This document shows positions 46,338-63,563 of a DNA stretch of 64,000 bases, piece after piece; the first letter of the stretch is position 1; each line of letters opens with the position of its first letter. The notes beneath the pieces were generated by a model that made no database searches, was not told the origin of the DNA, and saw nothing but the letters and a program-made list of their open reading frames with translations. Source of the stretch: Williamsia maris (lineage in GTDB: Bacteria; Actinomycetota; Actinomycetes; Mycobacteriales; Mycobacteriaceae); contig NZ_JAMTCJ010000002.1 in NCBI RefSeq assembly GCF_024171815.1, positions 868,001 through 932,000 of the forward strand. Direction: 5' to 3'. The translations under genes were made by a program, and so were the position numbers.

Positions 46338-46346
46338 GCCGCGCGC

Positions 46347-47408: not shown

Positions 47409-48481
47409 CCGCGCCCGAGAAACGTCTGGACCCCGTCGATTTCGGCTCACGGCAGTTCGTCCTGCGCCGCGGACCGCGGGTGTCGATGCGGGCGTCCTGG
47501 CGCACCATCACCGTCCTGTCCGTCCTCGGTGTCGGCGCCCTGGTGCTCGCGGTCTTCGCCCTCGGCGTCGGGGAGTACCCGGTCTCGCCCGCGGGCGTGG
47601 TCGAGGTGCTGACCGGTCAGAACCACAGCTTCGACCAGGTCGTCGTCCTGGAGTACCGGATGCCGCGGATCCTGTTGGCCCTGGTCATCGGTGCGGCCCT
47701 GGGCATCTCGGGTGCGATCTTCCAGGCGCTCACCCGCAACCCGCTGGGCAGCCCCGACGTCATCGGCTTCGAGATCGGCGCCTACACCGGTGCCCTGGTG
47801 GCCATCGGCATGCTCGGCGGCAGTTACTACACGACCGCCGCCGGGGCGATGGTCGGCGGACTGATCACCGCGGCCGTCGTCTACTCGCTGGCCTACAAGA
47901 ACGGTGTCGCCGGGTTCCGACTCATCGTCGTCGGCATCGCGGTCGGTGCCGTGCTGAGCTCGGTGAACCAGTGGATCATCATCAAGATCAAACTGCAGCA
48001 GGCGATCACCGCGTCGATCTGGCAGCAGGGCTCGTTGAACGGTTTGGAGTGGGGACAGCTCTACCCGGTGCTGGTGTGCGTCGCCGTCGCGTTGGTCGCG
48101 CTCGTCGCCATCGGACCGCAGCTGCCGATCCTGCAGATGGGCGACGACGCCGCGGGCGCTCTCGGCGTCCGCCCCGAACGGGCCCGCATCGCCTACTTCG
48201 TCGTCGGGGTCGTTCTCGTGGCCGTCGCGACCGCGGCCGCGGGACCGATCGCCTTCGTCGCGCTGGCAGCACCGCAGCTGGCCCGCCGACTCACGGGCGC
48301 ACCCGGCGTCGGCATGGTCTCCTCGGCCGTGATGGGGGCGTTCCTGCTGTTGTTCAGCGACCTCGTCGCTCAGAAGATCGTCGCGCCCGCGCAGCTCCCG
48401 GTCGGAGCGGTGACGGTGTCGGTGGGCGGGCTCTACCTCATCTGGCTGCTGGTGATCCAGGCCCGGAAGCGCCAGGCATGA
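47405..48481 (+). CDS. FecCD-family iron-siderophore permease, subunit 2
   Basis: A 358-residue permease, paralogous to the preceding one: YRMPRILLALVIGAALGISG and ALTRNPLGSPDVIGFEIGAY are the same conserved helices, and PIAFVALAAPQLARRLTG is the cytoplasmic coupling region. The pair makes the heterodimeric channel. Start and stop overlap neighbours by 4 bases each (GTGA, ATGA), a sign of translational coupling and fixed subunit ratio. Confidence 0.92.
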   Translation: MTAPEKRLDPVDFGSRQFVLRRGPRVSMRASWRTITVLSVLGVGALVLAVFALGVGEYPVSPAGVVEVLTGQNHSFDQVVVLEYRMPRILLALVIGAALGISGAIFQALTRNPLGSPDVIGFEIGAYTGALVAIGMLGGSYYTTAAGAMVGGLITAAVVYSLAYKNGVAGFRLIVVGIAVGAVLSSVNQWIIIKIKLQQAITASIWQQGSLNGLEWGQLYPVLVCVAVALVALVAIGPQLPILQMGDDAAGALGVRPERARIAYFVVGVVLVAVATAAAGPIAFVALAAPQLARRLTGAPGVGMVSSAVMGAFLLLFSDLVAQKIVAPAQLPVGAVTVSVGGLYLIWLLVIQARKRQA

Positions 48482-49371
48482 GCGACGACAGGAGAATGGG
48501 TGTGATGGGCGAGACGACAGGACAGGACGCCACCGACGGGGTCCGGCTGGGGGCGCGCTCGCTGACCCTCGGCTACGGCGGCAGCGCCATCGTCGACGGG
48601 TTGAGTGTCGACATCCCCTCCGGCGCCATCACCGCGATCGTCGGCCCCAACGCCTGCGGCAAGTCGACGCTGCTCCGCGGACTCGCCCGCCTGCTCAAGC
48701 CGACGACCGGACACGTCATCCTCGACGGTGCCGACATCACCTCGCTGAAGACCAAGGAGGTCGCGCGCCGACTCGGTTTGCTGCCGCAGTCGTCGATCGC
48801 CCCCGAGGGCATCACCGTCGCCGACCTCGTCGCCCGGGGGCGCTTCCCGCACCAGAAGGTCATGCGGCAGTACTCGCGCGACGACCAGCGGGCGGTGGCG
48901 CAGGCCATGGAGGCCACCGGCGTGACGTCCATCGCGGGCCGTCCGGTCGACGAACTCTCCGGCGGGCAACGCCAACGCGTCTGGGTGGCGATGGTCCTGG
49001 CCCAGCAGACGCCGTTGATCCTGCTCGACGAGCCGACGACGTTCCTCGACATCGCCCACCAGATCGAGTTGCTCGACCTGTTCGCCGAGCTCAACGCAGA
49101 GCAGGACCGGACCATCGTCGCCGTGCTGCACGACCTCAACCACGCCTGCCGCTTCGCCGACCACATCATCGCGATGAAGGCGGGATCGATCGTCGCGCAG
49201 GGCAATCCGGCCGACGTCATCACCGCCGAGCTGGTCGAGGACGTCTACGGGCTGCGATGCCAGATCATCGACGACCCGGAGACCGACACCCCGCTGGTGA
49301 TCCCGCGCGCATCGCGGACCGCCCGCGCCCGGCGCGACCTCGCCGCCGTCCCCGACGCGCGCGAGGCATGA
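48478..49371 (+). CDS. ATPase of the ferric siderophore importer (FepC/FhuC-like)
   Basis: A 297-residue ABC ATPase. Walker A is GPNACGKST at 56-64, then LLPQSS (Q-loop), signature LSGGQRQRV at 160-168, Walker B LILLDEPT at 180-187 and H-loop VLHDLNHAC. The layout is that of FepC/FecE. A tail of about 40 residues (Arg/Ala-rich) is longer than usual. The ATG at 48478 overlaps the permease stop; ATG 48496 is a possible internal alternative. It energises the two FecCD permeases. Confidence 0.93.
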   Translation: MSDDRRMGVMGETTGQDATDGVRLGARSLTLGYGGSAIVDGLSVDIPSGAITAIVGPNACGKSTLLRGLARLLKPTTGHVILDGADITSLKTKEVARRLGLLPQSSIAPEGITVADLVARGRFPHQKVMRQYSRDDQRAVAQAMEATGVTSIAGRPVDELSGGQRQRVWVAMVLAQQTPLILLDEPTTFLDIAHQIELLDLFAELNAEQDRTIVAVLHDLNHACRFADHIIAMKAGSIVAQGNPADVITAELVEDVYGLRCQIIDDPETDTPLVIPRASRTARARRDLAAVPDAREA

Positions 49372-51116
49372 GCGCCGCAGACATCGGCAGATCAGGCGAG
49401 ACCCGTTCGCCGACCGTGCTGACCGGGTCGCGCATCCTGCTGCTCGGGATGGTGCGCAACCGACGCTGGCTCACCACCGGGTCCCTGCTCTACGGCCTGC
49501 ACCAGATCACACAGGTGCTCGTGCCCGTCGTCATCGGCGTGGTCATCGACAAGGCGGTCAGCACCGGCGACGTCGGCGCACTCGTCGTGTGGATCGCGGT
49601 GCTGTTCGGCCTGTTCATGGCGCTGACGCTCACCTGGCGGTTCGGCGCGCGGATCCTCACCTGGGCCGAGGCGGGGGAGGGGTGCACCCTGCGCGTCGAG
49701 GTCGCCGCGAAGATCCTGTCGCCGAGAGGTGTTCGTACCGATCTGCGGTCGGGTGAGCTGCTGACCATCTCCAGCAGCGACGCCGACAACGCCTCCTACA
49801 TGCTCGACTACATCCCGCGGATCGTCGAAGCCGTCACCGCCACCCTGGCGTGCGCCGTCGCGCTGATGATCATCAACGTCCCGCTCGGACTGGGTGTCCT
49901 GGTGGGTACGCCGGTCGTGCTCGCGGTCCTGCACCTGAGCGCTCCGTTGATCACGCGACGCGTGCAGGACCAGCAGGAGACCGTGGGGCGGGCCACCGCG
50001 GTGGCCACCGACCTCATCGCCGGGTTGCGCCCGCTGCGGGGGATCGGCGCGCAACAGGCTGCCGCGCAGCGCTATCGGGACATCAGCCAGTCCTCGCTCC
50101 AGGCGACGCTGCGCGCGGCGCGGACGCAGCGCGGGTTCGCAGGCGTCTCGGCCACCATCAGCAACCTGCTGTCCGCGGGCATCGCGATCGCCTCCGGCTG
50201 GCTGGCGCTCGACGGCCACATCAGCATCGGACAGTTCGTCACCGTCATCGGACTCGCGCAGTTCCTCATCGAGCCGCTCACCCAACTCACCGAGGTCCCG
50301 AGCTGGGTCGCCGAGGCGCGGGCGTCGGCCAACCGGCTGTCGCTGGTGTTCGCGGCGCCGTCGCTGCTGCCGGACGGCGAACGCGACCCGGGTGAGCCGC
50401 CCTACGGACTACAGCTCTCGGGACTGGGCTACGGCTCCCTCGACGATGTCGACCTGACCGTCGCGCCCGGCGAGTTCCTCGGGGTGGTCGCCCCGAACTC
50501 GGCCGACGCCGAGGCGCTCGTCGCGGTCCTGTCCGGTCGGGTCCCGCCGGAGGAGTACCGCGGGACCGTGCGCCTCGGGGCGAACCACCTGCACGAGATC
50601 GAGCACCGGCAGGCGCGCGAGGCCATGGTCGTCGAGCCGCACATCACCGACATCTTCACCGGCACCCTTGGGTCCAACATCACCGCGGGCGCGCCGGATC
50701 CCGACCCCGAACTCGTCACCGACGCCCTGCGCTCCTCGGCCGCCACCGACGTGGTGACCATGCACGCCGCCGGTCTCGACGCACCGGTCACCGAGCGCGG
50801 TTCGAGTCTGTCCGGCGGCCAACGCCAGCGCGTCGCCCTGGCGAGGGCGCTGCTCGTCGAGCCGTCGGTCCTGGTGCTGCACGACCCGACCACCGCCATC
50901 GACTCGGTGACCGAGAAGACCGTCGCCGACGGGATCACCGGGATGCGACACCGCGGCGAGACCGGGTTCACCACCGTCCTGGTCACCAGCAGCCCGACCC
51001 TGCTGGCCGGCGTCGACCGAGTCGTCGTGCTCACCGCCGGTGGGGTGGTCGCCTCGGGGTCGCACGCCGAGCTCAGTGAGACCGACGACGACTACCGACG
51101 GGCGGTGCTGCGCTGA
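49368..51116 (+). CDS. Half ABC transporter with degenerate nucleotide site (pair 1, member A)
   Basis: A 582-residue type IV ABC half-transporter: six helices (about 20-320) and a nucleotide-binding domain (about 335-582). The signature LSGGQRQRV is intact, but the Walker A position reads APNSADAEA with no Gly-Lys-Ser/Thr; Walker B ends LVLHDPTT with Pro where the catalytic Glu should be, and the H-loop His is missing (TSSPTL). It must work with the following gene, which supplies intact Walker motifs. Position in a siderophore operon suggests an IrtAB-like import or siderophore export. ATG overlaps the ATPase stop. Confidence 0.9.
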   Translation: MSAADIGRSGETRSPTVLTGSRILLLGMVRNRRWLTTGSLLYGLHQITQVLVPVVIGVVIDKAVSTGDVGALVVWIAVLFGLFMALTLTWRFGARILTWAEAGEGCTLRVEVAAKILSPRGVRTDLRSGELLTISSSDADNASYMLDYIPRIVEAVTATLACAVALMIINVPLGLGVLVGTPVVLAVLHLSAPLITRRVQDQQETVGRATAVATDLIAGLRPLRGIGAQQAAAQRYRDISQSSLQATLRAARTQRGFAGVSATISNLLSAGIAIASGWLALDGHISIGQFVTVIGLAQFLIEPLTQLTEVPSWVAEARASANRLSLVFAAPSLLPDGERDPGEPPYGLQLSGLGYGSLDDVDLTVAPGEFLGVVAPNSADAEALVAVLSGRVPPEEYRGTVRLGANHLHEIEHRQAREAMVVEPHITDIFTGTLGSNITAGAPDPDPELVTDALRSSAATDVVTMHAAGLDAPVTERGSSLSGGQRQRVALARALLVEPSVLVLHDPTTAIDSVTEKTVADGITGMRHRGETGFTTVLVTSSPTLLAGVDRVVVLTAGGVVASGSHAELSETDDDYRRAVLR

Positions 51117-52915
51117 TGGCCGGCTCCTCGACCACCGCGACCGACGATCCCGCCGACGCACCCGACACCCTTCTACCGATCGCGACCGCCCGGGACTCCT
51201 GGCGATGGCTGCGCGTCGAACTGCGCCGCAACGTCGGGTCGACCTCCCTGATGCTGCTGGTCGGGATCATCGCGGCCGCCGCGTCGGTGCTGCCGACCTA
51301 CGTCTTCGCCGAGTTGATCGACCGCGTGCGTGACCGCGATCCGGTCTCGTCGATCACCGTCATCGCGGTCGTGATCGTCGCCGCCGCCGTCGTCGGTGGC
51401 GTCACCACCGGGGTGTCGACGTACCTGGTCAGCAAGCTGGGCGAGACACTGCTGGCGCGGCTGCGTGAACGCGTCATCGAGCGGTCGCTGACGCTGCCGA
51501 CCACGACGATCGAACGCGCGGGCAAGGGAGACCTGTTGTCGCGCATCGGCGACGACGTCAACACCATCGGCCGCGCGGTGACCGACGTGCTGCCGACGAT
51601 GATCACGTCGATGCTGATGGCCGTGCTCGGCATCGCGGCCATGACCGGTCTGGACTGGCGTCTCGGTCTCGCCGGACTGCTCGCCGCGCCGCTCTACATC
51701 TTCAGCCTCCGGTGGTACCTCACCCGGTCGGCGCCGCGATACGCGGTGCAGCGCAGGGCCGTCGCCACGCGCTCGGCGAAGCTGATGGAGGCCATGGTCG
51801 GCGCACGGACGGTGCACGCCTACGGACTCGAGGACCGGCACCTCGGTGAGATCGACGCCGCCGCCGTGCGGGCCCGCGACATCTCGATCGGGATCGTCAC
51901 GCTGTTCACCCGTTTCGTGGGCCGCACCAACCGTGCCGAGTTCGTCGGGCTGTCCGCCGTTCTCATCACCGGCTTCTTCCTGGTGCGCGGAGATCTGGTC
52001 AGCGTGGGCGCGGCCACCGCGGCCGCCCTGCTGTTCCACCGACTCTTCTTCCCGATCGCGACGATCCTGCACAGCTTCGACGAGGTGCAGTCCGCGGGCG
52101 CGAGCCTGGCGCGTCTCGTCGGTGTCGTCGACATCCCCGACGACGCCACCCGGCCCACCACGGCGCTCGCCGAACCGGCGGACACATCCCTGGAGCTGTC
52201 CGACGTCGAGTTCGGGTACGCCCCCGGACATCCCGTACTGCACGGGGTGAGCATCCGGATCGCACCCGGCGAACGGGTGGCCCTGGTCGGGTCCACCGGT
52301 GCGGGCAAGACGACGCTCGCGGCCATCGCCGCGGGTCAGTACGCGCCGACCCGCGGGTCGGCCCGCATCGGCGGGGTGTCGGTCGCCGATCTCACCGTCG
52401 ACCAGCTCCGACGCCAGGTCACCATCGTCAGTCAGGAGGTGCACGTCTTCGCGGGCCCCCTCGTCGACGACGTGCGACTGGCCCATCCGTCGGCGGGGCG
52501 GGACGAGGTCCGCGCCGCTCTCGACGTGGTCGGTGCCCTGGAGTGGGTCGACGCCCTTCCCGACGGGATGGACACCGTGATCGGCGAACTGGGCCGCGAA
52601 CTGACCGCAGCCTCGGCGCAACAGCTCGCCCTGGCCCGGCTGGTCCTGGCCGATCCTGCGGTCGCCGTCCTCGACGAGGCGACGGCGGAGGCGGGCAGCC
52701 TCGGCGCGCGCGGTCTGGAGCAGGCCGCTTCGGCCGCCACCCGTGGACGCACCACTCTCGTTGTCGCACATCGACTCACGCAGGCCGCCGCCGCGGATCG
52801 GATCGTGGTGCTCGAGCACGGCCGCGTCGTCGAGGTCGGGACGCACGACGAGTTGCTCGTCGCGCGCGGCCGTTACGCCGAACTCTGGGACGCCTGGAGT
52901 TCGCGATCGGCGTGA
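51116..52915 (+). CDS. Half ABC transporter with intact Walker motifs but no LSGGQ (pair 1, member B)
   Basis: A 599-residue half-transporter. The membrane part (about 25-330) is followed by an NBD with canonical Walker A GSTGAGKTT, Q-loop TIVSQEVHVF, Walker B VAVLDEATAEAG and H-loop VAHRLT. The signature, however, is replaced by LTAASAQQLALARL. Together with member A it forms one complete ATP site (its Walker motifs plus A's LSGGQ) and one dead site. TGATG overlap with member A fixes the pairing. Its last 43 bases overlap the convergent MFS gene. Confidence 0.9.
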   Translation: MAGSSTTATDDPADAPDTLLPIATARDSWRWLRVELRRNVGSTSLMLLVGIIAAAASVLPTYVFAELIDRVRDRDPVSSITVIAVVIVAAAVVGGVTTGVSTYLVSKLGETLLARLRERVIERSLTLPTTTIERAGKGDLLSRIGDDVNTIGRAVTDVLPTMITSMLMAVLGIAAMTGLDWRLGLAGLLAAPLYIFSLRWYLTRSAPRYAVQRRAVATRSAKLMEAMVGARTVHAYGLEDRHLGEIDAAAVRARDISIGIVTLFTRFVGRTNRAEFVGLSAVLITGFFLVRGDLVSVGAATAAALLFHRLFFPIATILHSFDEVQSAGASLARLVGVVDIPDDATRPTTALAEPADTSLELSDVEFGYAPGHPVLHGVSIRIAPGERVALVGSTGAGKTTLAAIAAGQYAPTRGSARIGGVSVADLTVDQLRRQVTIVSQEVHVFAGPLVDDVRLAHPSAGRDEVRAALDVVGALEWVDALPDGMDTVIGELGRELTAASAQQLALARLVLADPAVAVLDEATAEAGSLGARGLEQAASAATRGRTTLVVAHRLTQAAAADRIVVLEHGRVVEVGTHDELLVARGRYAELWDAWSSRSA

Positions 52916-54333
52916 TCGGCCTCGCCCGTCCCATCTGATCGCCCCGGCAGGAATGCGGCGAACACGAATGCCGCGACGGCACCGCCGGCCGCGATGAGGA
53001 GGATGACCGTGAACGCGTTCTTTGACGGGGTCACCCCGTTCGACAGCGTCATGCCCGCGAGCACGACACCGGCGATCGCGGACGCGAACGACGTCCCGAC
53101 CGACCGCATCAGGGTGTTCAGGCTGTTGGCGGCCGCGGTCTCGGTGGCGGGCACCGCGCCCATGATGAGCGCGGGCATCGCGCCGTAGGCCAGTCCGATG
53201 CCCGCGCCGATGAGGATCGACACGAGAATGAACTCCCACAGGTGGGTGAGCGTGAACGCAGCGAGGACATAGGCGCCCGCCACCACGATCGCGCCGGCCA
53301 TCAGGGTGACCCGCGGGCCCATCGATGCGCTGATCTTCGCCGAGATGGGCGACACCAGCATCATCACGAAGCCCGACGGGGCCATCACCAGTCCGACGAC
53401 GAGCAGTGACTTGCCCAGGCCGTAACCGGTCGACTCGGGCAACTGCAGCATCTGCGGGAAGACCAGCGACATCGCGAACATGGCGATGCCGAACACGACC
53501 GCGGCGAGGTTGGTGAGCAGGACCTGACGGCCCGCGCTGACGCGCAGATCGACCAGCGGACGTGTCGTCCGGAGCTCCCACCATCCCCAGACGGCGAACG
53601 CGACCACGGCGAGCGCGAACATCCCTGCGGTCATACCGCTCGTCCAGCCCCAGTCGGCGCCCTTCGAGATCGCGAGCAGGAGTCCGACCAGAGCGGTCGA
53701 CAGGGTGATCGCGCCGACGTGGTCGAAGGCGCCGCCGGTGCGGACCTTCGATTCCGGCAGAACCACGGTGATCGAGATCAGCACGACGACACCGAGCACC
53801 GTCGACACCCAGAACAGCATGTGCCAGTCCCAGTTGTCGGCGATGACGGCCGAGATCGGCAGTCCCAGAGCGCCACCGACGCCCAGGGATGCGCTGATCA
53901 TGGCGGTGGCCGATCCCAGCTTCTCCTTGGGCAGCACGTCGCGCAGGATGCTGATGCCCAGCGGGACGACGCCCGCGGACAGACCCTGCAGGGCACGGCC
54001 GACGATGAGCGGTGCCAGCGATTCGCTGAGTGCACCGACCACCGAGCCGACGATCAGGATCGCGACACTGATGAGCAGCATCCGGCGCTTGCCGAACATG
54101 TCGCCGAGGCGGCCGACGACCGGGGTGGCCACCGCCGCGGCGAGCAGCGTGGCGGTGATGACCCAGGAGGTGTCCGACGAACGCGCGTCGAGCAGCGTCG
54201 GCAACTGCGGGATGATCGGGATGAGCAGCGTCTGCATAAGCGAGACGACGATGCCCGCGAACGCGAGCGAGATGATGACCAGGGTGACGTTCGGCGTCGA
54301 CGACGACGAACGCGGTGGTGTGGTGGTGGACAT
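52873..54333 (-). CDS. MFS drug/siderophore exporter (DHA2 type)
   Basis: A 486-residue major facilitator with about 14 helices. Motif A GRLGDMFGKRR lies after helix 2, and the motif C-like GVGGALGLPISAVIAD follows, both typical of drug:H+ antiporters of the DHA2 group. It exports a small hydrophobic compound. The gene is divergent from a TetR gene with a clear operator between them (54378-54397), so it is probably the regulator's target. Its place inside the siderophore locus leaves open a role in siderophore export. Confidence 0.9.
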   Translation of the reverse strand: MSTTTPPRSSSSTPNVTLVIISLAFAGIVVSLMQTLLIPIIPQLPTLLDARSSDTSWVITATLLAAAVATPVVGRLGDMFGKRRMLLISVAILIVGSVVGALSESLAPLIVGRALQGLSAGVVPLGISILRDVLPKEKLGSATAMISASLGVGGALGLPISAVIADNWDWHMLFWVSTVLGVVVLISITVVLPESKVRTGGAFDHVGAITLSTALVGLLLAISKGADWGWTSGMTAGMFALAVVAFAVWGWWELRTTRPLVDLRVSAGRQVLLTNLAAVVFGIAMFAMSLVFPQMLQLPESTGYGLGKSLLVVGLVMAPSGFVMMLVSPISAKISASMGPRVTLMAGAIVVAGAYVLAAFTLTHLWEFILVSILIGAGIGLAYGAMPALIMGAVPATETAAANSLNTLMRSVGTSFASAIAGVVLAGMTLSNGVTPSKNAFTVILLIAAGGAVAAFVFAAFLPGRSDGTGEADHADRELQASQSSA

Positions 54334-54377
54334 GTGCGGCGTCCTTCCGGACGGTGGGGTGGGCGGCTCGGCTACTT

Positions 54378-54397
54378 TAAGTCAATCGACTGACTTA
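54378..54397. promoter_or_regulatory. TetR operator, site 1 (MFS/TetR gap)
   Basis: TAAGTCAATCGACTGACTTA is an inverted repeat (TAAGTCA/TGACTTA, 6-base centre) in the 100-base gap between the divergent MFS and TetR genes. A near-identical site stands at 55120-55137. Confidence 0.78.
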
Positions 54398-54433
54398 GGC
54401 AAGAGGTGCCATCGCTGTGTCTCTGATGGTTGA

Positions 54434-55114
54434 GTGGTCGTCATCGGTAGAGAAACGAAAGTGGGAGATGTGGAAGCCAGGACGCCGAAGAACGAGCGGG
54501 CCGTCGCGACGCGCGATGCGATCCTGCTCGCGGCGGAGCGACTGTTCGCCGAGCAGGGCATCGCCGCCGTCTCGAATCGTCAGGTGAGCGAGGCCGCCGG
54601 GCAGGGCAACAACGCCGCGGTGGGATATCACTTCGGAACGAAGACCGACCTGGTCAGGGCCATTGTCGCCAAGCATTCGGCCGCCATCGACCAGGGCCGT
54701 GCGGAGCTGGTGCGCCTACACCGGGGCTCGAGCGAGGTGCGGTCGTGGGTGTCGTGCATGGTCCTCCCGGTCACCGACCATCTGGCCGCGCTCGGCAGTC
54801 CGACCTGGTACGCACGCTTCGGTGCGCAGGTGTCGACCGATCCCGAGTTGCGGGCGGTTCTTCTCGACGAGGCGACCACCTCGCAGTCGCTGCGGATCGC
54901 GATCAACCAGCTCGCCGTCTGCACGCCCGAGCTGTCCGACGGCACCCGCGCCGCCCGTAACTCGATGGCCCGCATATTGGTCTCGCAAGGATGCGCCGAA
55001 TTCGAACGCTATCTGGCGCAGGCAGATTCGAATGCTGACGCGACGTGGGATCGGTGTGGCAAGGACCTCGTCGACGCCATCGTCGGAATGTGGACGGCAC
55101 CGGTCAGCCCATGA
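54434..55114 (+). CDS. TetR-family regulator of the MFS/P450 module
   Basis: A 226-residue TetR protein (from GTG 54434; GTG 54461 or 54470 would remove 9 or 12 residues and none has a good ribosome site). The helix-turn-helix covers about 20-65 (AILLAAERLFAEQGIAA, VSNRQVSEAAGQGNNAAVGYHFG). The paired operators at 54378 and 55120 flank this gene, so it most likely represses the MFS gene, itself and the downstream P450 gene, with an unknown inducer. Confidence 0.85.
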   Translation: MVVIGRETKVGDVEARTPKNERAVATRDAILLAAERLFAEQGIAAVSNRQVSEAAGQGNNAAVGYHFGTKTDLVRAIVAKHSAAIDQGRAELVRLHRGSSEVRSWVSCMVLPVTDHLAALGSPTWYARFGAQVSTDPELRAVLLDEATTSQSLRIAINQLAVCTPELSDGTRAARNSMARILVSQGCAEFERYLAQADSNADATWDRCGKDLVDAIVGMWTAPVSP

Positions 55115-55119
55115 CCCTC

Positions 55120-55137
55120 AAGTCAGTCGCTTGACTT
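55120..55137. promoter_or_regulatory. TetR operator, site 2 (P450 promoter)
   Basis: AAGTCAGTCGCTTGACTT has the same half-sites and 6-base spacing as 54378-54397 and lies 75 bases upstream of the P450 start. It brings the P450-ferredoxin-P450 genes into the TetR regulon. Confidence 0.75.
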
Positions 55138-55211
55138 AAACTAAATCCATCGGTCTACTGGAGTGACGGTGCGGCACGTGAGTCGCACCGCTCACCTCCG
55201 GGAGGATTCGC

Positions 55212-56432
55212 ATGACCGACACCGACACCCGGACGGACTCGCAGGCCGAGATCCCGTCCTTTCCGATGAAGCGGGCGTCCGGGTGCCCGTTCGACCCGCC
55301 GCCACTGCTGGGTGAACTCCAATCAGACGCGCCGGTGACCCGCGTTCGCCTCGCCGATGGTCGGACGCCCTGGCTGGTGACGAAGTATCACGAGCAGCGA
55401 CAGGTGTTGGCCGACCGGCGGATCAGCTCCGACATCCGAACCCCGGGACATCCGTACCACTCCGGTGAGGACGCCCGTCCGGTCAGCTTCATCACCATGG
55501 ACGATCCCGAGCATCTGCGTCTGCGTCGCATGGTCACCGCGCCGTTCGGGATCAAGCGGGTCGAGAAACTCCGTCCCACGATCCAGGCCATCGTCGACGA
55601 CCTCATCGACGCGATGCTCGCCGGTCCGCCGCAGGCCGATCTCGTGGAGGCGTTCGCGCTGCCGGTTCCGTCGCTGGTGATCTCGGAGATGCTCGGGGTC
55701 CCGTACGCCGACCACGACTTCTTCCAGGAGAACAGTCGACTGATGGTGAGTCGTGCGGTGTCGCGGTCGGAGAGTGCCGCCGGCCATCAGCGGCTCATCG
55801 ACTACCTCACGGAGCTCGTCGGTGCGAAGTGTGTTGATCCGGGGGATGACCTGCTGTCGGAGTTGGCCGTTCGAGTCAACGACGGTGAGTTGACCCGCGG
55901 TGACGTCGCCGAGATGGGGACGCTGCTGCTGCTCGCCGGTCACGAGACCACGGCGAACATGATCGCGCTGGGCACCGCAGCCCTGCTGTACAACCCGGAT
56001 CAGCTGGCGCTGCTGCGCGACTCCGACGACCCGGCCGTCGTCACCTCGGCGGTGGAGGAACTCCTGCGCTACCTCAACATCACCCACAACGGACGCGCAC
56101 GAGTCGCGCTGGAGGACATCGAGATCGGCGAGACCACGGTGCGGGCCGGCGAGGGACTGATCATGGCCAACGACATCGGTAATCGGGATCCCGACGCGTT
56201 CGACGACCCGGACCGCCTCGACATCACACGAGACGCGCGGCGTCATGTGGCGTTCGGTTTCGGTGTGCACCAGTGCCTGGGGCAGCCGCTGGCCCGCCTC
56301 GAACTGCAGATCGTCTACCGCACGCTCTACCGCCGGATACCCACCCTCGCGCTCGACTGCGACCTGTCCGACGTCCCGTTCAAGGACGACGCCGCGGTCT
56401 ACGGCGTCCACGAGTTGCCGGTCCGCTGGTGA
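55212..56432 (+). CDS. Cytochrome P450
   Basis: A 406-residue soluble bacterial P450. The I-helix oxygen motif is AGHETTAN, the K-helix ExxR is EELLRYL, and the heme-binding loop is FGFGVHQCLG with the axial Cys355. The profile (short, CYP105/107-like SFITMDDPEHLRLRRMV start) suggests oxidation of a natural product or xenobiotic rather than a primary metabolite. A GGGAGG-type ribosome site lies upstream of ATG 55212. Electrons probably come from the ferredoxin encoded next. Confidence 0.9.
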   Translation: MTDTDTRTDSQAEIPSFPMKRASGCPFDPPPLLGELQSDAPVTRVRLADGRTPWLVTKYHEQRQVLADRRISSDIRTPGHPYHSGEDARPVSFITMDDPEHLRLRRMVTAPFGIKRVEKLRPTIQAIVDDLIDAMLAGPPQADLVEAFALPVPSLVISEMLGVPYADHDFFQENSRLMVSRAVSRSESAAGHQRLIDYLTELVGAKCVDPGDDLLSELAVRVNDGELTRGDVAEMGTLLLLAGHETTANMIALGTAALLYNPDQLALLRDSDDPAVVTSAVEELLRYLNITHNGRARVALEDIEIGETTVRAGEGLIMANDIGNRDPDAFDDPDRLDITRDARRHVAFGFGVHQCLGQPLARLELQIVYRTLYRRIPTLALDCDLSDVPFKDDAAVYGVHELPVRW

Positions 56433-56463
56433 CCCCATCCCTGCTCACGAAAGGAATGACCCC

Positions 56464-56658
56464 ATGAGAGTGACCCTCGATCAGGACAAGTGCGTCGGAT
56501 CCGGGCAGTGCATCACCGCGGCGCCCGAGGTGTTCGACCAGCGCGACGACGACGGCATCTCCTTCGTCGTCGACCCCGATCCGCCAGCGACATCGATCCC
56601 GGAGGTGGAGCAGGCGGCGGCGGTGTGTCCGGCCCTGGCGATCAGGTTGCTGGGCTGA
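56464..56658 (+). CDS. 3Fe-4S ferredoxin (P450 partner)
   Basis: A 64-residue single-cluster ferredoxin. Cys10 and Cys16 (CVGSGQC) and Cys55 followed by Pro bind the cluster; Gly13 stands where a fourth Cys would be, giving the 3Fe-4S type usual beside actinobacterial P450s. It passes electrons from a reductase, not encoded here, to P450. AAGGA precedes ATG 56464; it is 31 bases after the P450 stop. Confidence 0.93.
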   Translation: MRVTLDQDKCVGSGQCITAAPEVFDQRDDDGISFVVDPDPPATSIPEVEQAAAVCPALAIRLLG

Positions 56659-56750
56659 TCAGGACCGGTCGGATCGGCGAAGCGGCCCCCGGACAGAAAA
56701 CTGATGCTAACGTCAGGTTCAGGAAAGTGGTTCTGACCGGGAGGTGCCCT

Positions 56751-57973
56751 GTGACCAGTTCGCTGCACGTGGACGGAGCGTCACCAGGCGTCCTGCGCCC
56801 GTTCTGGGAGGCGGACCTGCCCACGCGACTCGCCGCCTTCGCCGACCTGCGGGCTCGGCCCGACCTGCCCTTCCATGAGATGGACTCCGGCGGCCAGGGC
56901 TTCTGGTCGGTGACGTCGTACGCGGACGCGGTCGCGGTGACGAAGGATCCCGCGACGTACTCGAACGCGCGTGGCTTCTCCCTCGACGACATGTCGCGGC
57001 AACTGCTCGAGACGATGGCGTCGATCATCGGCATGGACGACCCCAAACACAAGCAGCAGCGCAAGCTGGTCCAGGGTGCGTTCACCATGCGTGCGATCGC
57101 GGCGCTGACCGACAACGTGGCGTCGCTGTCCGACGTGATCGTCGACGAGCTGCGTGACCTCGGCGAGTTCGACTTCGTCGACGCGGTCGCCTCGAAGCTG
57201 CCGCTCCAGGTGATCTGCGACCTGCTCTCGATCCCCGCGTCGGACCGTCCGCACCTGCGGGTGCTGGTCGATCGTGTCCTGGGCGTGAGCGATCCGAGTT
57301 TCGGTGGACCGCAACAGGGCGTCGAGGCCGTGATCGAACTCTTCGGATACGCCATCGAACTCGGCAAGGAACGCCAGGCCACGCCGGGCGACGACCTCAC
57401 CTCGCTGCTGATGTCGGCCGAGGTCGACGGTCAGCGGCTGACGCCGACGGAGTTCGGTTCGTTCCTGATCCTGATGATCGCGGCGGGCAACGACACCACC
57501 CGCACCGGGCTCGCCTGGGCGATCCATCTGCTCTCTGAGCACCCCGAGCAACAGCGGATGCTCGCCGCCGACTTCGACGGACACCAGGCCAACGCGATCG
57601 AAGAGATTCTCCGGTGGTCGTCGCCGTCCTGCACATGCGCCGAACCGCGACGCGCGACACCACGATCCGCGACGTCGCGGTGGCCGAGGGCGACAAGATC
57701 GTCATCTGGTATCTCGCCGCCAATCGCGATCCGGCGATGTTCGAGAACCCCGACGCCTTCGACATCACCCGGTACAACGCGAGCAAGCAGATAGCTTTCG
57801 GTGCGGGTGGGCCACACTTCTGTCTCGGAGCGAACCTGGCGCGCATGGAGATCCGGGTCGTCCTGCAGAAATTGCTGGCCGCATTCCCGGACCTCCACGC
57901 GACCGGCCGGCCGGATGCGCTGCTCTCCCAGTTCGTGCACGGCGTGAAATCACTGCCGTGCACGGTGCGATGA
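56751..57973 (+). pseudogene. Cytochrome P450 with a one-base frameshift
   Basis: A P450 of about 407 residues if one base is restored. It starts at GTG 56751 (GGGAGG 6 bases upstream). The first 292 codons read normally through AAGNDTTRTG (I-helix) and EEILRWSSP (ExxR). At about 57626 one G seems missing (CCGTCC where CCGGTCC is expected), and the conserved continuation VLHMRRTATRD, then FGAGGPHFCLGANLAR with the heme Cys, is in the next frame to the TGA at 57971. It is either a recent inactivation or an assembly error. The family is like CYP124/125-type fatty acid or steroid P450s. Confidence 0.85.
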
Positions 57974-57974
57974 G

Positions 57975-58622
57975 TTACCGCCCGCTCGAGCGTTCCCGTT
58001 CGAGCGGAGTGAAACCGTCCGCGGGCGGCTCGCCGGCGATGCGGTTCGACCGCTTGCGACCCTGGTACCCCGACACCGACTCGAACGCCGCGGACACACC
58101 CATCGGCGACGACTCATAGGTCATCGACTTCTCCCGGGCGAACCCGAGATCGGCCCCCACCTCGACGGCGTCGATGTTGGAACCGAGGAACACGAAGTCC
58201 CAGTCGTAGCGCGTCTCCTGTCGCGTGATCAGTTCTCGCACACCGGTGTTCGACCACTCACGGCTGGCGTTCTCGTGACCGTCGGTCATCACCAGGATGG
58301 TCACCGACCCCGGACGCTCGTGCTCCGGCTTCGCGGCCAGATCGGCGCCGACGTCGGTGATGAGCTTCCCGATCGCGTCGTACAGCGCCGTCATGGCACG
58401 CGGCTCGAGGACCAACGGCGGCACCTCCGCGATGGGCTTCGCCGAGTAGACGAGTTCGTACCGGTCGTCGAATTGCGCGAGTGTCACGACGGTCTCGCCG
58501 TCGGACGCCCGCTCCTTGGCGATGAACGCGTCGAAACCGCCGCGGGTGTCGTCCGCGATGGACTGCATCGAGCCGGAACGGTCGAGCAGGGCGGCGACGA
58601 GGGACAGCTGGGGATCGGTCAT
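57975..58622 (-). CDS. von Willebrand factor A-domain protein
   Basis: A 215-residue VWA protein. The metal-ion adhesion site is intact: DRSGS (Asp14, Ser16, Ser18), the Thr in MTALYDAIGK, and the Asp in ILVMTDGHENAS. It lacks a signal peptide, so it is cytoplasmic and resembles small VWA proteins that assist AAA or TerD-type stress systems. Partners are not nearby. ATG 58622 has GGAGTG upstream. It lies convergent to the broken P450, one base beyond its stop. Confidence 0.8.
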   Translation of the reverse strand: MTDPQLSLVAALLDRSGSMQSIADDTRGGFDAFIAKERASDGETVVTLAQFDDRYELVYSAKPIAEVPPLVLEPRAMTALYDAIGKLITDVGADLAAKPEHERPGSVTILVMTDGHENASREWSNTGVRELITRQETRYDWDFVFLGSNIDAVEVGADLGFAREKSMTYESSPMGVSAAFESVSGYQGRKRSNRIAGEPPADGFTPLERERSSGR

Positions 58623-58728
58623 GTGCACTCCAGAGAACGAGTCGCCGGGGCGACGCGGACGAACTTGATGGAGCGAACCGTACAAGTGACCACCGACAAC
58701 CGACCCCGACGTTCGCGGGGCGGACGGC

Positions 58729-59676
58729 TCAGGCGGGGGTGTTCGTGAGGTATCCGCCGCCGCGGGTGAAGTAGTCCAGCGCCGCGTGCTCGACGCCATC
58801 GTCGGTGCGCAGCCGGTCGATCACGAGACCGTGCGAGCCGCCGCGGTACGCCTCGCTGCCCGCGACGATGACCATGCCGTCGTCCTCGGCGATGAACACC
58901 CGGCCGGGTGTCCCTCCGTAGATGCTGCGGGAGAGGTGTGCCGCGGTGATCCGCAGGCGGTCGCCGCGAAACCACGTGTAGGCGTTGGGATACGGGTCCT
59001 GGAGGGCACGGATGAACCGCTCGATCTCGCCGGCGGGCTTGGTCCAGTCGACCAGGCTGTCGATGTCGGCGCGCTTGTGGAAGAAGGTGCGTCGGCTCAG
59101 GTCCTGGGGCGTCAGCTCGGCGGTCCCGAACTCGATGGCGTCGAGCGCCTCGACGAGGACCTCGGGGATGAGGTCGATGGTCGCCTGGACCAGACCGGTG
59201 CCGGTGGAGGTGTCGGTGATCGGCACGGCGCGCTGGGTGATGATGCCGCCGGTGTCGAGATCGTCGTCCATCATGTGGGCGGTCAGACCGGTCTGCGACG
59301 CACCGCTGATGAGTGCCCAGATGACCGGCGAGAACCCGGTGAACTCGGGGAGCAGCGAGTCGTGGAGGTTCAACGTGCCGTGCTCGGGGATGGTGAACAG
59401 CTCCGGTGGGAGCCAGGTCCGCCAGTTGTTGGCCACCATCACGTCGGGCGCGATGTCGCGGACCGCGGCGATCAACTCGTCGGTGGGTCGCTTGGCGAGG
59501 TGGACGTCGATCCCCTCGCTGCGGGCGAGGTCCTCCACCGAGTCGGCCCAGATCGACTCGTAGGCGTGCTCGCTCGGCGGGTGGGTCACCACGAGTTCGA
59601 CCTGATGACGTGACTTGACCAACGCCTCCAGGGTCTTGTGTCCCCAGGTCTGGTAGCCCAACATCACGACGCGCAC
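58729..59676 (-). CDS. N-formyltransferase for hydroxyornithine (siderophore assembly)
   Basis: A 315-residue enzyme of the methionyl-tRNA formyltransferase fold. The start [20 protein letters not shown] and [17 protein letters not shown] are typical of siderophore enzymes that use formyl-tetrahydrofolate to formylate N5-hydroxyornithine (CchA, Rft type). The catalytic triad is Asn103, His105 and Asp141 ([16 protein letters not shown]). It starts at GTG 59676 with AAGGGG 5 bases upstream; GTG 59682 is possible. It is divergent from mbtH with an iron box between, so it should be induced by iron limitation. This predicts a hydroxamate siderophore. Confidence 0.88.
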
Positions 59677-59700
59677 AGTCACCCCTTGCCTGGCCACCGA

Positions 59701-59719
59701 TTTGGTTAGCCTTGCCTTT
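59701..59719. promoter_or_regulatory. Iron box between formyltransferase and mbtH
   Basis: Read on the minus strand, AAAGGCAAGGCTAACCAAA matches 14 of 19 positions of the IdeR/DtxR consensus. It lies 25 bases from the formyltransferase start and 95 from mbtH, in the divergent promoter region. Low iron would release both transcripts. Confidence 0.75.
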
Positions 59720-59747
59720 GATACCATCGCCCAGTTCAGGTATCAAA
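59717..59747 (+). promoter_or_regulatory. 9-bp inverted repeat beside the iron box
   Basis: TTTGATACC (59717-59725) pairs with GGTATCAAA (59739-59747) around a 13-base loop. It starts inside the iron box and would lie at the 5' end of the mbtH message, whose leader is unusually long (about 90 bases). It could be a second operator or an RNA hairpin. Confidence 0.5.
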
Positions 59748-59813
59748 TGCGTTCCCATCGCGGACGCCACGCGTCTCTGCGCCCGGTGCCGACGCTCGAC
59801 GAGAGGAAGTGGA

Positions 59814-60032
59814 TTGTCCGGCAATCCTTTTGACGACACCGACGGCACCTTCGTGGTGCTGGTGAACGCCGAGGACCAGTATTCGCTGTGGCCGTCGTTC
59901 TCCGACGTCCCCGGCGGCTGGACCGTGACGTTCGGCGACACCGGGACCGACCGGGCGAGCTGCCTCGACCACATCGAGAAGACCTGGACCGACATGCGTC
60001 CGCGCTCCCTCCGGGAGCAGATGCAGGCGTGA
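59814..60032 (+). CDS. mbtH: MbtH-like protein
   Basis: A 72-residue MbtH-family chaperone that binds and activates NRPS adenylation domains. The family signature is plain: [12 protein letters not shown], then [24 protein letters not shown] start at TTG 59814, with AGAGG about 8 bases upstream; this gives the usual length. Its stop overlaps the next gene start (GTGA). The partner is almost surely the NRPS that starts at 63564. Confidence 0.9.
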
Positions 60033-61759
60033 CCGGGGGATGGGTCCTGCGCCGGACCATCACCCGCAACACCCGATGGCTGGTGGGTGGTTCGGTCCTC
60101 ATCGCCGGATATCAGCTGTGTGAGGTCGCGATCCCGATCCTCATCGGCGTCATCGTCGATCGGGCCGTCTCGTCCGGGTCGTACGTCTCGATCGCGGTGT
60201 GGACCGCTGTCCTCGCCGCGGTCTTCGTCGTGCTCACCGTCCTCTACCGCCTCGGCGCCCGACAGCTGATGTTCGGGATCGCGCGCGAATCGCATCTGCT
60301 GCGCGACGAACTCAGCGGCCGCGCGCTCGAACCCGGCGGCCTGGCCGTCGCGGCCGGACGAGACGACGCCTGGTCGTCGGGCGAGCTGCTGTCGATCTCG
60401 ACCACCGACGCCGACAACACCTCGTACGTCATCGACTACATCCCGCGCGTGGTCAGTGCGGTCGTCGGGACGGTCGCGTGCGGCGTGGTGTTGCTGACGA
60501 TCGACCTCGTTCTCGGCGCGATGGTGCTCGTCGGCATCCCCATCGTGGTGCTGGGTCTGCAGGTCACCGCGCCCCTGATCGCGCGCCGCGTCGAGGCGCA
60601 GCAGGACACGGTCGGCCGCACCTCGGGCCTGGCCACCGACCTCGTGAGCGGACTCCGACCGCTGCAGGGGATCGGGGCCACGGGAGCCGCGTCCGACCGG
60701 TACCGACGGTCCAGCCGCACCTCGCTGGCCGCCGCGCTGCGGGCCGCGCGGATCCAGAGCGTGCACGCGGGCGCTTCCGCCGCGGTCGGCGCATTGGCCG
60801 CGATGGGGGTCGCGGTCGCCGCGGTGTACTTCGCGCTGACCGGTGACATGGGCATCGGTGCACTGATCACCGTCATCGGCCTGGCGCAGTTCCTCATCGA
60901 CCCCTTCGCGTTGCTGGCCATCGTGCCGAGCTGGGTGGCCGAGGCCCGGGCCAGTGCTGATCGTGTGGCCGCAGTGCTCGGGGCACCGCTGCTGCGCGGC
61001 GCTTCGGAAAAACGGTCGGTCGCCGGATCCGATCGTGCTCCGGCCGGCCCCCGCGGTGCGGTGCGCATCGACTGCTCCGCCCACGGCGGACTGACCGACC
61101 TCGTCCTCGACATCGCGCCGGGGGAGTACGTGGCCGTGCTGGCGCCGTCGGCACGCGACGCCGCCGCCCTCGTCGAATTGCTGGCCGGCGATCCGACCGC
61201 CCCGGCGGGCTCGGTCAGCGTCGATGGCCGCCGGATCGAGGACATCCCGGCGGGCACCCGGCGACACGCGATCGTCGTCGAGCACCACGACGCCCACCTG
61301 TTCACCGGCACGTTGGGATCGAACATCGACTGGGGCACGACGGCGAGCGCCCGGCCGGGCGACGTCGAGGCGTCGCTGGCGGCGTCGGCCGCCGACGAGG
61401 TGGTCGCGCTGTACCCGGCCGGACTCGATCACCCGGTGACCGAGCGGGGCGCGAGCCTGTCCGGCGGACAGCGACAACGCCTCGCACTGGCCCGCGCACT
61501 CATCGCCGCCCCCGACGTCCTCGTCCTGCACGACCCGACGACCGCCGTCGACGCGGTCACCGAGCAGGCCATCGCCGACGGGATCCGTGCCGTGCGCGGC
61601 CGTGCTGCGAAGACGACCGTCGTCATCACCAGCAGCCCCGCCCTGCTCGCCACCGCCGACCGCGTGCTGCTGCTCGTCGACGGTGCGATCGCTGCCGTCG
61701 GTTCCCACTCCGAGCTCGCCCGTGGTCGCGACGACTACCGAGAGTTGGTGTCCCGATGA
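60029..61759 (+). CDS. Half ABC transporter with degenerate nucleotide site (pair 2, member A)
   Basis: A 576-residue half-transporter, clearly paralogous to 49368-51116: shared DADN(A/T)[19 protein letters not shown] and [11 protein letters not shown]. The NBD has an intact LSGGQRQRL signature, but the Walker A place reads APSARDAAA, Walker B ends LVLHDPTT (Pro for Glu), and the H-loop His is absent (TSSPAL). It starts at GTG 60029 overlapping the mbtH stop. Its substrate is probably the siderophore made by the linked NRPS, in or out. Confidence 0.9.
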
Positions 61760-63549
61760 CCATCCCCGATGTCGCGCCGATCCTGCCGGTCGCGCAGTCG
61801 CGGCGAACCCTGCGGTGGCTGCGCGCCGACCTCGCACATCGCCCGCGCACCCTCGTCGCGACGTTGGTCGTCGGTGTCGCCGCGGCCGGTGCGTCGGTCA
61901 TCCCGATCTACCTGCTCGGCTCCCTCGTCGACCGCGTCCGCGACGGCGCCGACGTGTCCGACCTGTGGCCGCTCGCCGCCGTCATCGGCGTCGCCGCACT
62001 CCTCGGCGGGCTCGGTACCGGGGTCTCGACCTACCTGGTGACCAAGCTCGGGGAACAGACGCTGGCCGACCTCCGCGAATCGGTGCTCCGTCGCGCGCTG
62101 GACCTGCCCGCCGACACCATCGACGAATCCGGACGCGGTGACCTGCTCTCGCGCGTCGGTGCCGACGTCGGCGCGGTCGGCAAGGCGGTGTCGCAGGTCG
62201 TGCCCACGATGATCAACGCGTTCTTCCTCGGCGTGCTGAGCCTGGTCGGGATGGCGGGGATCGACTGGCGACTGGGACTGGCCGGGGCGCTTGCCATCCC
62301 GGCCTACATCCTCGCGCTGCGGTGGTATCTGCCGCGCTCGGCGCCGCTGTACCGCGACGAGCGGATGGCCATCGCAGCGCGCGCGCAGGTGATGGTGGAA
62401 TCGCTCCAGGGCATCAAGACGATCGACGCCTACGAGCGGCACGAGCATCACCGCGACGAGATCAGCGTCGCCTCGGCTCGTGCGCGTGATCTGTCGATCG
62501 CCGTGTTCACCCAGTTCACCCGCTTCGTCGGGCGGATCAACCGGGCCGAGTTCGTCGGCCTCGCCGCCATCCTGGTCGTCGGCTTCCTGCTGGTCCGCGA
62601 CAGTGACGACAGCGGTGGCGGGGTGACCGTCGGTGCGGTGACCGCGGCCGCGCTTCTCTTCCACCGCCTGTTCAACCCCATCGGCATGCTGATGTTCAAC
62701 TTCGACGAGGTCCAGGCCGCCGGCGCCAGCCTCTCGCGACTGGTCGGCGTCGTCGACATCGCTGTGTCGGACAAGCGGTCCGGTGTCGCCGTTCCGCGGG
62801 ACGCACGGGTCGAGGTCCGCGATGTCCGTTTCGCCTATCACCCCGATCACCCGGTGCTGCAGGGTGTCTCACTGACCATCCCCGCAGGCACGCGGACCGC
62901 GCTGGTCGGGTCGACCGGTGCGGGCAAGACCACGCTCGCGGCGATCATCGCCGGCATGCGCGACGCCGACTCCGGATCGGTGACCATCGGCGGTGTACCC
63001 GTAGGGGACATCGACCCCGCCCGACTGCGGTCACACGTCGCGACCATCACGCAGGAGGTGCACGTCTTCGCCGGCCCCCTGATGGAGGATCTCCGGTTGG
63101 TCGCGCCCGACGCCACGCGCGACGAGGTCCTCGCCGCGGTCGACGCGGTCGGCGCACTCGACTGGGTCACCGCCCTGCCCGAGGGCATCGACACCCGTGT
63201 CGGCGAAGGCGGCCTGGCGCTGACCGCCGCGCAGGCACAGCACATCGCGCTGGCCCGTCTGGTCCTCGGCGACCCCCGTGTCGTCGTGCTGGACGAGGCC
63301 ACCGCGGAAGCGGGCAGCGCGAGCGCTCGCGACCTCGAGGACGCGGCTCTCGCGGCCACCGCGGGCCGCACCACACTGGTTGTCGCACACCGTCTCACGC
63401 AGGCCGCGGCGGCGGATGCCATCGCGGTCATGGAGCATGGACAGATCATCCAATTCGGTCCGCACTCCGAGCTGTTGAGAGATGGGAACGGACGGTACGC
63501 GCAGCTCTGGCGTGCATGGGAGACCGATGCGGTGACTCCGACAGGCTAG
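61756..63549 (+). CDS. Half ABC transporter with intact Walker motifs but no LSGGQ (pair 2, member B)
   Basis: A 597-residue half-transporter paralogous to 51116-52915. Walker A GSTGAGKTT, TITQEVHVFAGPL, Walker B VVVLDEATAEAG and VAHRLTQ are intact; the signature is degenerate (LTAAQAQHIALARL). It pairs with the preceding gene (ATGA overlap) to give one working and one dead ATP site. Its TAG stop lies inside the iron box of the next promoter. Confidence 0.9.
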   Translation: MTIPDVAPILPVAQSRRTLRWLRADLAHRPRTLVATLVVGVAAAGASVIPIYLLGSLVDRVRDGADVSDLWPLAAVIGVAALLGGLGTGVSTYLVTKLGEQTLADLRESVLRRALDLPADTIDESGRGDLLSRVGADVGAVGKAVSQVVPTMINAFFLGVLSLVGMAGIDWRLGLAGALAIPAYILALRWYLPRSAPLYRDERMAIAARAQVMVESLQGIKTIDAYERHEHHRDEISVASARARDLSIAVFTQFTRFVGRINRAEFVGLAAILVVGFLLVRDSDDSGGGVTVGAVTAAALLFHRLFNPIGMLMFNFDEVQAAGASLSRLVGVVDIAVSDKRSGVAVPRDARVEVRDVRFAYHPDHPVLQGVSLTIPAGTRTALVGSTGAGKTTLAAIIAGMRDADSGSVTIGGVPVGDIDPARLRSHVATITQEVHVFAGPLMEDLRLVAPDATRDEVLAAVDAVGALDWVTALPEGIDTRVGEGGLALTAAQAQHIALARLVLGDPRVVVLDEATAEAGSASARDLEDAALAATAGRTTLVVAHRLTQAAAADAIAVMEHGQIIQFGPHSELLRDGNGRYAQLWRAWETDAVTPTG

Positions 63550-63559
63550 GCTATCCTTA
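63541..63559 (+). promoter_or_regulatory. Iron box and leaderless promoter of the NRPS gene
   Basis: ACAGGCTAGGCTATCCTTA matches 14 of 19 positions of the IdeR/DtxR consensus. TATCCT (63552-63557) is a good -10 six bases before the GTG start, so the box covers the promoter. It makes the NRPS separately iron-regulated although it also follows the ABC genes closely. Confidence 0.78.
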
Positions 63560-63563
63560 CCGG

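Follow-up and report, generated by a model that had tools for sequence, protein, structure and literature searches.

The stretch of Williamsia maris DNA analyzed here (64,000 nucleotides, contig NZ_JAMTCJ010000002.1, positions 868,001 to 932,000 of the forward strand; hereafter the window) carries two paralogous pairs of ATP-binding cassette (ABC) half-transporter genes, A1-B1 and A2-B2. In each pair, one composite ATP site keeps all its motifs and the other has been dismantled. Both pairs belong to a family sampled here as 144 actinomycete A/B pairs, in which the Walker A Lys was present in all 144 B proteins and in none of the 142 A proteins scored at this position; the SGGQ of the signature and the D-loop Asp were found in all 144 A proteins. 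Judging from sequence, we consider it probable (about 0.7) that A and B form an exporter-fold heterodimer in which one ATP site drives transport and the other is dismantled, and that this heterodimer exports siderophores.

A1 (49368-51116) and B1 (51116-52915) overlap by 1 base, A2 (60029-61759) and B2 (61756-63549) by 4 bases; all four genes lie on the plus strand. An open reading frame (ORF) check placed pair 1 at 49368-52915 and pair 2 at 60029-63549, as had an earlier reading of the sequence alone (the original prediction). Each protein matched ABC_membrane and ABC_tran above the Pfam curated cut-offs, as expected of half-transporters with a transmembrane domain (TMD) and a nucleotide-binding domain (NBD). 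No SID domain was found in A or B by the Pfam scan, and no NCBIfam family reached its cut-off among the matches listed for the four proteins (25 of 166 to 172 per protein). In an alignment of the four, A1 and A2 were 49% identical and B1 and B2 58%.

A1 reads APNSADAEA where the Walker A motif GxxGxGK[ST] is expected (50490-50516). Its Q-loop Gln is replaced by His425 (50640-50642), the Asp-Glu of Walker B by His505-Asp506 (50880-50885), and the H-loop His by Ser541 (50988-50990); the LSGGQ signature (50808-50822) and the D-loop Asp512 (50901-50903) are kept. B1 keeps Walker A as GSTGAGKTT (52289-52315), the Q-loop, the Walker B Asp520-Glu521 (52673-52678), and the H-loop His552 (52769-52771), and has lost the signature, which reads LTAAS instead of LSGGQ (52601-52615), and the D-loop Asp (AEAGS, 52685-52699). 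A2 has the A1-like pattern and B2 the B1-like pattern. In a head-to-tail dimer, one composite site joins four motifs of B (Walker A, Q-loop, Walker B, H-loop) to two of A (signature, D-loop) and has no losses; in the mirror site, all six placed motifs, the same four of A and the same two of B, are lost. The original prediction of one canonical and one lost site was thus correct, as were its statements that A keeps LSGGQ and lacks the Walker A Lys and H-loop His, and that B keeps the Walker motifs and H-loop and lacks LSGGQ. The catalytic Glu that it described as lacking in A is replaced by Asp, and three changes were new: Gln to His in the Q-loop of A, Asp to His in its Walker B, and Asp to Gly in the D-loop of B (ATAEAGS). 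The A-loop aromatic residue of A had no certain alignment and was left out of the placed motifs. If it is counted as lost, seven losses over 14 motif instances, taken as independent, would split cleanly between the two sites in 2 of 3432 ways, a rough figure.

Relatives were collected by scanning 84,980 species genomes with A1 and A2, which yielded 73 loci; the search patterns favor close relatives, so the scan does not show absence outside the actinomycetes. The match exceeded a weak NBD hit in 68 loci (L009-L076), all of them titled as actinomycetes; the other five (L077-L081), from other groups, matched weakly and in the NBD only and were set aside. Within the order of the window, 89 of 298 genomes had a match at E <= 1e-70, one match in 79 of them and two in 10 (four candidates were scored per genome), and 68 of 99 places were sampled (30 loci and 38 regions), another being pair 2 itself. 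From a wider listing, 20 places were sampled as regions. The 27 short loci L152-L178 did not enter the pair tree, but six were used in the deep tree described below. Two matches lay on plasmid records (Nonomuraea and Embleya), without annotated genes there.

The pair tree required A and B in one locus and contained 147 pairs: 132 of an inner clade, 12 of a basal clade, and three outgroup heterodimers. The 144 family pairs include both window pairs and one record present twice (L033 and L086); an identity cut-off of 99% leaves 143 pairs, and one of 90% leaves 130. Left out of the tree were loci with B ~11 kb away (L142, L143, L179, L180), fragments or split frames (L045, L069, L075, L076), a locus where the contig ends (L188), L052 and the second L009 pair, in which a single run-on frame spans both halves, and copies of the window pairs (L001, L002, L082). 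The late motifs of B are missing in up to 31 of 132 inner rows, mostly where the locus sequence ends, and denominators are lower at such gaps and cuts. The four genomes with halves ~11 kb apart (with L201-L204) show complementary losses as elsewhere; in one of them, G620, an NRPS (nonribosomal peptide synthetase) gene separates the halves.

The complete site is nearly invariant in the inner clade. In A, the signature S, G, G, and Q and the D-loop Asp were each found in 132/132 proteins. In B, the A-loop Tyr, Walker Lys, and Q-loop Gln were each present in 132/132 and one P-loop Gly in 131/132, and the Walker B Asp (106/106), Walker B Glu (105/105), and H-loop His (101/101) had no exceptions. 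At the other site, A retained the Walker Lys in 0/130 and the P-loop glycines in 2/132 (the first), 1/131, and 1/130. The Q-loop Gln of A was found once in 132 (His, as His425 of A1, in 129), the Walker B Asp in four (His, as His505, in 112), the Walker B Glu in 27 (Asp in 99), and the H-loop His in two. The signature of B kept Ser in 6/127, the two glycines in 2/125 and 3/124, and Gln in 106/124; in this register, the loss concerns Ser and the glycines, with Gln mostly kept. The D-loop Asp of B persisted in 1/102 and was Gly (Gly527) in 101. A pattern search across the family found GxxxxGK[ST] once in each of the 144 B proteins and in none of the 144 A proteins. An SGG[QEKRH] string occurs in five of 144 B proteins, whose aligned signatures are LTAS, LTAA, LTPG, LPAT, and LTPV. 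Clustering at 90% identity (130 rows, basal members included) gave 0/128 for the Walker Lys of A and 130/130 each for the SGGQ of A and the Walker Lys of B; the D-loop Asp of B remained in 13/105, and among the 144 pairs its keepers are the 12 basal members.

These counts bear on whether the degenerate motifs belong to decaying, non-functional genes. The former Walker A of A does drift among homologues, as decay would have it, yet its Lys never came back. Several other lost positions are fixed to new residues, and across 132 pairs the kept site shows little or no variation; decay is therefore contradicted, and we give it next to no credence. Alignment revealed neither intact motifs at the lost site nor random variation of the degenerate residues, the two outcomes that would have spoken against the original prediction.

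E-values alone did not delimit the family, as the outgroup heterodimers (8.3e-62, 2.1e-61, and 1.6e-60) overlap a basal member (2.9e-59); motifs and tree were therefore used instead. In the unrooted pair tree, the family (equivalent to the outgroup branch), the inner clade, and the basal clade each had a support of 1.0. A tree of TMD columns only gave 1.0, 1.0, and 0.991, so the clades do not depend on the motif columns. The "defined subfamily" that had been proposed is thus one clade even in the membrane-domain tree, with an invariant kept site and no sign of random decay.

The basal clade is half eroded. Its 12 A proteins lack the Walker Lys (0/12) and H-loop His (0/12) and retain the Walker B Glu in 11 and the Walker B Asp in six; its 12 B proteins lack the first signature Gly (0/12) and all keep the D-loop Asp (12/12). 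In the three outgroup pairs, the A-like half keeps Walker A and the H-loop; its catalytic Glu is Asp, and its Q-loop Gln is Glu. The B-like half has an LSAGE signature. Because the basal clade is half eroded, loss was probably stepwise. The simplest order, as suggested by these sequences, would be a degenerate heterodimer that lost the P-loop, the H-loop, and the partner signature, and later the Walker B Asp and the partner D-loop; this order, drawn up informally, rests on three long-branched outgroup pairs. Members from Corynebacterium and Leucobacter (L072, L074, L075, L076) are diverged and may hold further intermediates: A of L072 and L075 has LDE at Walker B, and B of both has LDES as its signature.

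A deep FastTree that included other exporters (102 sequences, with near-duplicate entries of the same outgroup proteins) recovered A (n=29) as a clade with a support of 1.0 and B (n=29) with 0.971. B, together with a long-branched paralogue (L006), joined the consensus halves at 0.985. A joined the degenerate halves of TM287/288-like heterodimers at 0.831, a weak link that counts against us, and the degenerate halves among themselves were poorly resolved (0.32). The family may thus derive from a heterodimer of the TM287/288 type, whose already weak site would have eroded step by step.

How would such a transporter work? We propose that A and B constitute an obligate heterodimeric ABC transporter of exporter fold: A would have to complement B because a complete site needs motifs from both. 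The intact composite site, with its Walker A, Q-loop, Walker B, and H-loop from B and its signature and D-loop from A, would bind and hydrolyze ATP and drive the cycle. The dismantled site would probably hold no nucleotide and would act as a fixed protein-protein hinge, replacing the ATP "glue" of ordinary degenerate sites. We lean toward an empty site because the P-loop itself is gone. The motifs, their conservation, the trees, and the gene neighborhood are observed, and from them we deduce the dimer, its single-site ATPase, the empty site, the order of loss, and the direction of transport. If it is empty in vivo, which we put at about even odds, these proteins would be natural one-ATP ABC exporters, with the ATP-glue step replaced by fixed protein contacts.

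Alternatively, the degenerate site of the same heterodimer might still bind ATP permanently through unusual contacts. Published descriptions of degenerate exporters have ATP bound at the weak site (PMC7756269 and PMC12038006). According to PMC8421411, the deviant site of Pdr5 still contains ATP although the Walker Lys is replaced by Cys and other residues are lost, which is a point against an empty site, and ATP at the degenerate site of MsRv1273c/72c has been proposed to act as glue (PMC12038006). Despite these analogies, we think permanent binding unlikely. In nearly all inner members, A has lost its P-loop glycines, Q-loop Gln, and Walker B Asp, and its partner the signature glycines. In MsRv1273c, the degenerate half, the catalytic Glu is reported to be Asp and the switch His Gln, and the Walker A groove takes up the phosphates of ATP (PMC12038006). 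The AlphaFold model of A1 has a helix in place of the P-loop: the P-loop helix begins at Lys398 in B1 and at residue 378 in A1, which aligns with B1 residue 395, three aligned positions earlier. This early start is consistent with the lack of a phosphate-binding loop in A1.

In a working site, the Q-loop Gln and the Walker B Asp help to hold Mg2+. In the clade of 72 pairs that contains both window pairs, both positions of A are His in 70/72, and 69 of these 70 also have an acidic residue at position 380 or 382. In the rest of the inner clade, the His pair with the acid was found in 30/60 (the His pair alone in 42/60), and in the basal clade in 0/12. The dismantled pocket could be imagined to sense a metal or a ligand and so to gate siderophore export according to cell iron; this idea comes from sequence and not from geometry, and four A proteins of coelichelin type without the Q-loop His speak against it.

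The siderophore assignment starts from the genes around the pairs. The run that ends with pair 1 begins with a siderophore-interacting FAD protein (45459-46337; Pfam SIP, FAD_binding_9), followed by two FecCD-type importer permeases (46347-48481, as 46347-47408 and 47405-48481; Pfam FecCD, 311.8 and 269.1 bits) and an importer ATPase, of FepC type by position (48478-49371; Pfam ABC_tran, start set by eye), which overlaps the start of A1 by 4 bases; all are on the plus strand. A formyltransferase gene (58729-59727, minus strand; Formyl_trans_N, Formyl_trans_C) is divergent from A2. A long NRPS gene, whose 5' part (63516-63998, plus strand, AMP-binding) starts within the end of B2, leaves the window and continues as a single open frame some 20 kb past the window end (L112 517 to L113 3646, ~23 kb in total); its first 3000 residues beyond the window hold adenylation, condensation, and PP-binding domains. 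Past it lie a Peripla_BP_2 lipoprotein gene on the opposite strand and a lysine/ornithine N-oxygenase gene. Judged by its gene content, the locus is a hydroxamate-type siderophore cluster.

We then looked for siderophore markers around the relatives, with the window's own genes as queries, bit-score thresholds set after the matches had been seen, and no random-locus control. Of the named loci, 59 span at least 19 kb; 54 of these had at least one marker, 46 at least two (whether the two FecCD queries are taken singly or as one), and 43 at least three (FecCD taken once). Siderophore genes were also seen in four of seven further inner-type regions (G620, L225, L228, L230). In four 20-kb regions of basal members (L221-L224, four of the 12), no marker reached the thresholds; two had weak ATPase matches (79 and 85 bits), and the sampled neighbors in three were unrelated. 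The architecture itself is thus not bound to siderophores.

One inner-type region, G620, has the order N-oxygenase, FecCD, FecCD, FepC, binding protein, B, NRPS, A, which is coelichelin-like; in the coelichelin cluster, the NRPS gene is presumably placed between cchG and cchI. The four B proteins of this type (G620, G400, G294, G215) all have LDVTK as the signature and have lost the D-loop Asp (STAEAGS); their A partners have the Q-loop His in 0/4 and the Walker B His in 3/4. ExiT of M. smegmatis, which PMC6684656 names with exochelin export, is a candidate relative on which our reading does not draw; further papers on exochelin added nothing about it.

Some observations weigh against our reading of these proteins as siderophore-exporting heterodimers. 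Five of the 59 large named loci (L012, L034, L036, L048, L066) had no marker, and no siderophore genes were seen in three of the seven inner-type regions (L226, L227, L229). Two consensus patterns for an iron box of IdeR/DmdR type had no match in the window, a result of little weight because this genus may use other boxes. The distances of A and B correlate at 0.96, mostly through shared descent, and the AlphaFold models (mean pLDDT 92 for A1 and 89 for B1) are nucleotide-free monomers. The markerless loci, together with the four basal regions, would fit transporters that are not siderophore-specific and export another product. We hold this to be improbable, given at least two markers in 46 of the large loci and the position of pair 2 directly before the NRPS gene.

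The exporting heterodimer would have a direction that the fold does not fix. We suggest that both window pairs most likely export the hydroxamate siderophore of the adjacent NRPS and that the FecCD system re-imports the iron-loaded form. Both models match type IV (exporter-fold) structures. In Foldseek searches, the first matches of A1 were MsRv1273c/72c, TmrAB, TM287/288, and CydDC (identity 19-24% among the 50 matches listed), and those of B1 were IrtAB, TmrAB, TM287/288, and MsbA (22-32% among 50). IrtAB was first by E-value for B1, with TmrAB, TM287/288, and MsbA within about one order of magnitude, and exporter-fold siderophore importers such as IrtAB and YbtPQ exist. Pair 1 also closes a run that starts with SIP and FecCD genes. 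These points would suit pairs that import iron-siderophores, perhaps one importing and one exporting, a reading that we find doubtful. A FecCD importer is already encoded in the locus, with a Peripla_BP_2 lipoprotein gene past the window end; A and B are without the SID domain. IrtAB has this domain and holds nucleotide in both sites (PMC10246721), and CchG and CchI are "presumed to export coelichelin" (PMC12161575).

The layouts of relatives bear on a division of labor between the two pairs, which the original prediction had raised. The trees place the two pairs in different old clades. The pair 2 clade (22 members) includes four other Williamsia loci, 16 from Mycolicibacterium or Mycobacterium, and one Actinomycetota metagenome-assembled genome, and the core of pair 1 (four members) comprises its near-twin L009 and two Pseudonocardia, with a support of 1.0 in both trees. 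Two adjacent pairs occur in the window and L009 only, among 14 layouts. In seven relatives other than L009, Fec importer genes stand beside one pair (L010, L013, L020, L038, L051, L059, L065; up to ~10 kb sampled to either side), and the same place can be taken by a pair of either clade. Because the role is not bound to a clade, this argues against the import/export split, which we dropped as unsupported by the layouts. The two pairs may serve two siderophore forms, the other option of the original prediction.

In Williamsia herbipolensis (L051, 6907-14411), a pair of the pair 2 type directly follows SIP-FecCD-FecCD-FepC. The same place in the window (45459-52915) is held by pair 1, whose nearest kin besides L009 are Pseudonocardia. 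Pair 1 looks, from sequence, like a replacement or horizontal gain. Between the pairs (52873-57794) are an MFS transporter gene on the minus strand, a TetR regulator gene, and two P450-like ORFs; the best Pfam stretch of the second covers residues 300-363 only, and its frame may be cut or shifted. The minus-strand ORF at 57975-58799, von Willebrand-like by eye and without a Pfam match, has an uncertain start and overlaps the formyltransferase ORF.

As a widespread bacterial family with one site stripped and the other invariant, it offers a natural experiment on the ATP-glue model, and its half-eroded basal members suggest an order of loss. Its signature (A: no P-loop, LVLH[DE]PTTAVD; B: LTxxQ, ATAEAGS) may help to find this transporter type, often near siderophore genes, in actinomycetes. 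Among the titles and beginnings of abstracts listed by searches of an open-access library, none describes this family or a bacterial exporter half that lacks Walker A. In its abstract, a 2020 review (PMC7756269) ascribes "unclear functional advantages" to degenerate sites.

Among known systems, IrtAB and YbtPQ share with the window pairs the fold, the two subunits, and the siderophore context; by motif, the window pairs have one canonical site only, in which they differ from IrtAB. CchG and CchI are linked to the family through the gene order of G620, where A and B carry losses like those of the window pairs; the S. coelicolor proteins SCO0491 and SCO0493 are candidate orthologues. TM287/288, TmrAB, BmrCD, and MsRv1273c/72c share the fold and the combination of a degenerate with a consensus half, and A and B group with these two kinds. 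The degenerate half of TM287/288, TmrAB, and BmrCD presumably keeps Walker A, as do those of our three outgroup pairs, whereas A of this family has neither its Lys nor the P-loop pattern. A parallel in motifs is Pdr5, of the PDR subfamily of fungi, plants, and others, in which one site is canonical and the other is changed at the Walker A Lys, the Walker B Glu, the H-loop His, and the partner signature (PMC7756269); the combined loss of the Walker A Lys and partner signature, in which the original prediction rightly saw a defined subfamily, is thus not unprecedented. Pdr5 is a eukaryotic full transporter with its NBDs before its TMDs, whereas the window pairs are bacterial, of exporter fold, and encoded by two TMD-NBD half-transporter genes. 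The present family is the more extreme case: it has also lost the P-loop glycines, the Q-loop Gln, and the Asp residues of Walker B and of the partner D-loop, which Pdr5 may keep at least in part. With nearly all motifs of one site changed, these pairs are like the PDR transporters by likeness and not by descent.

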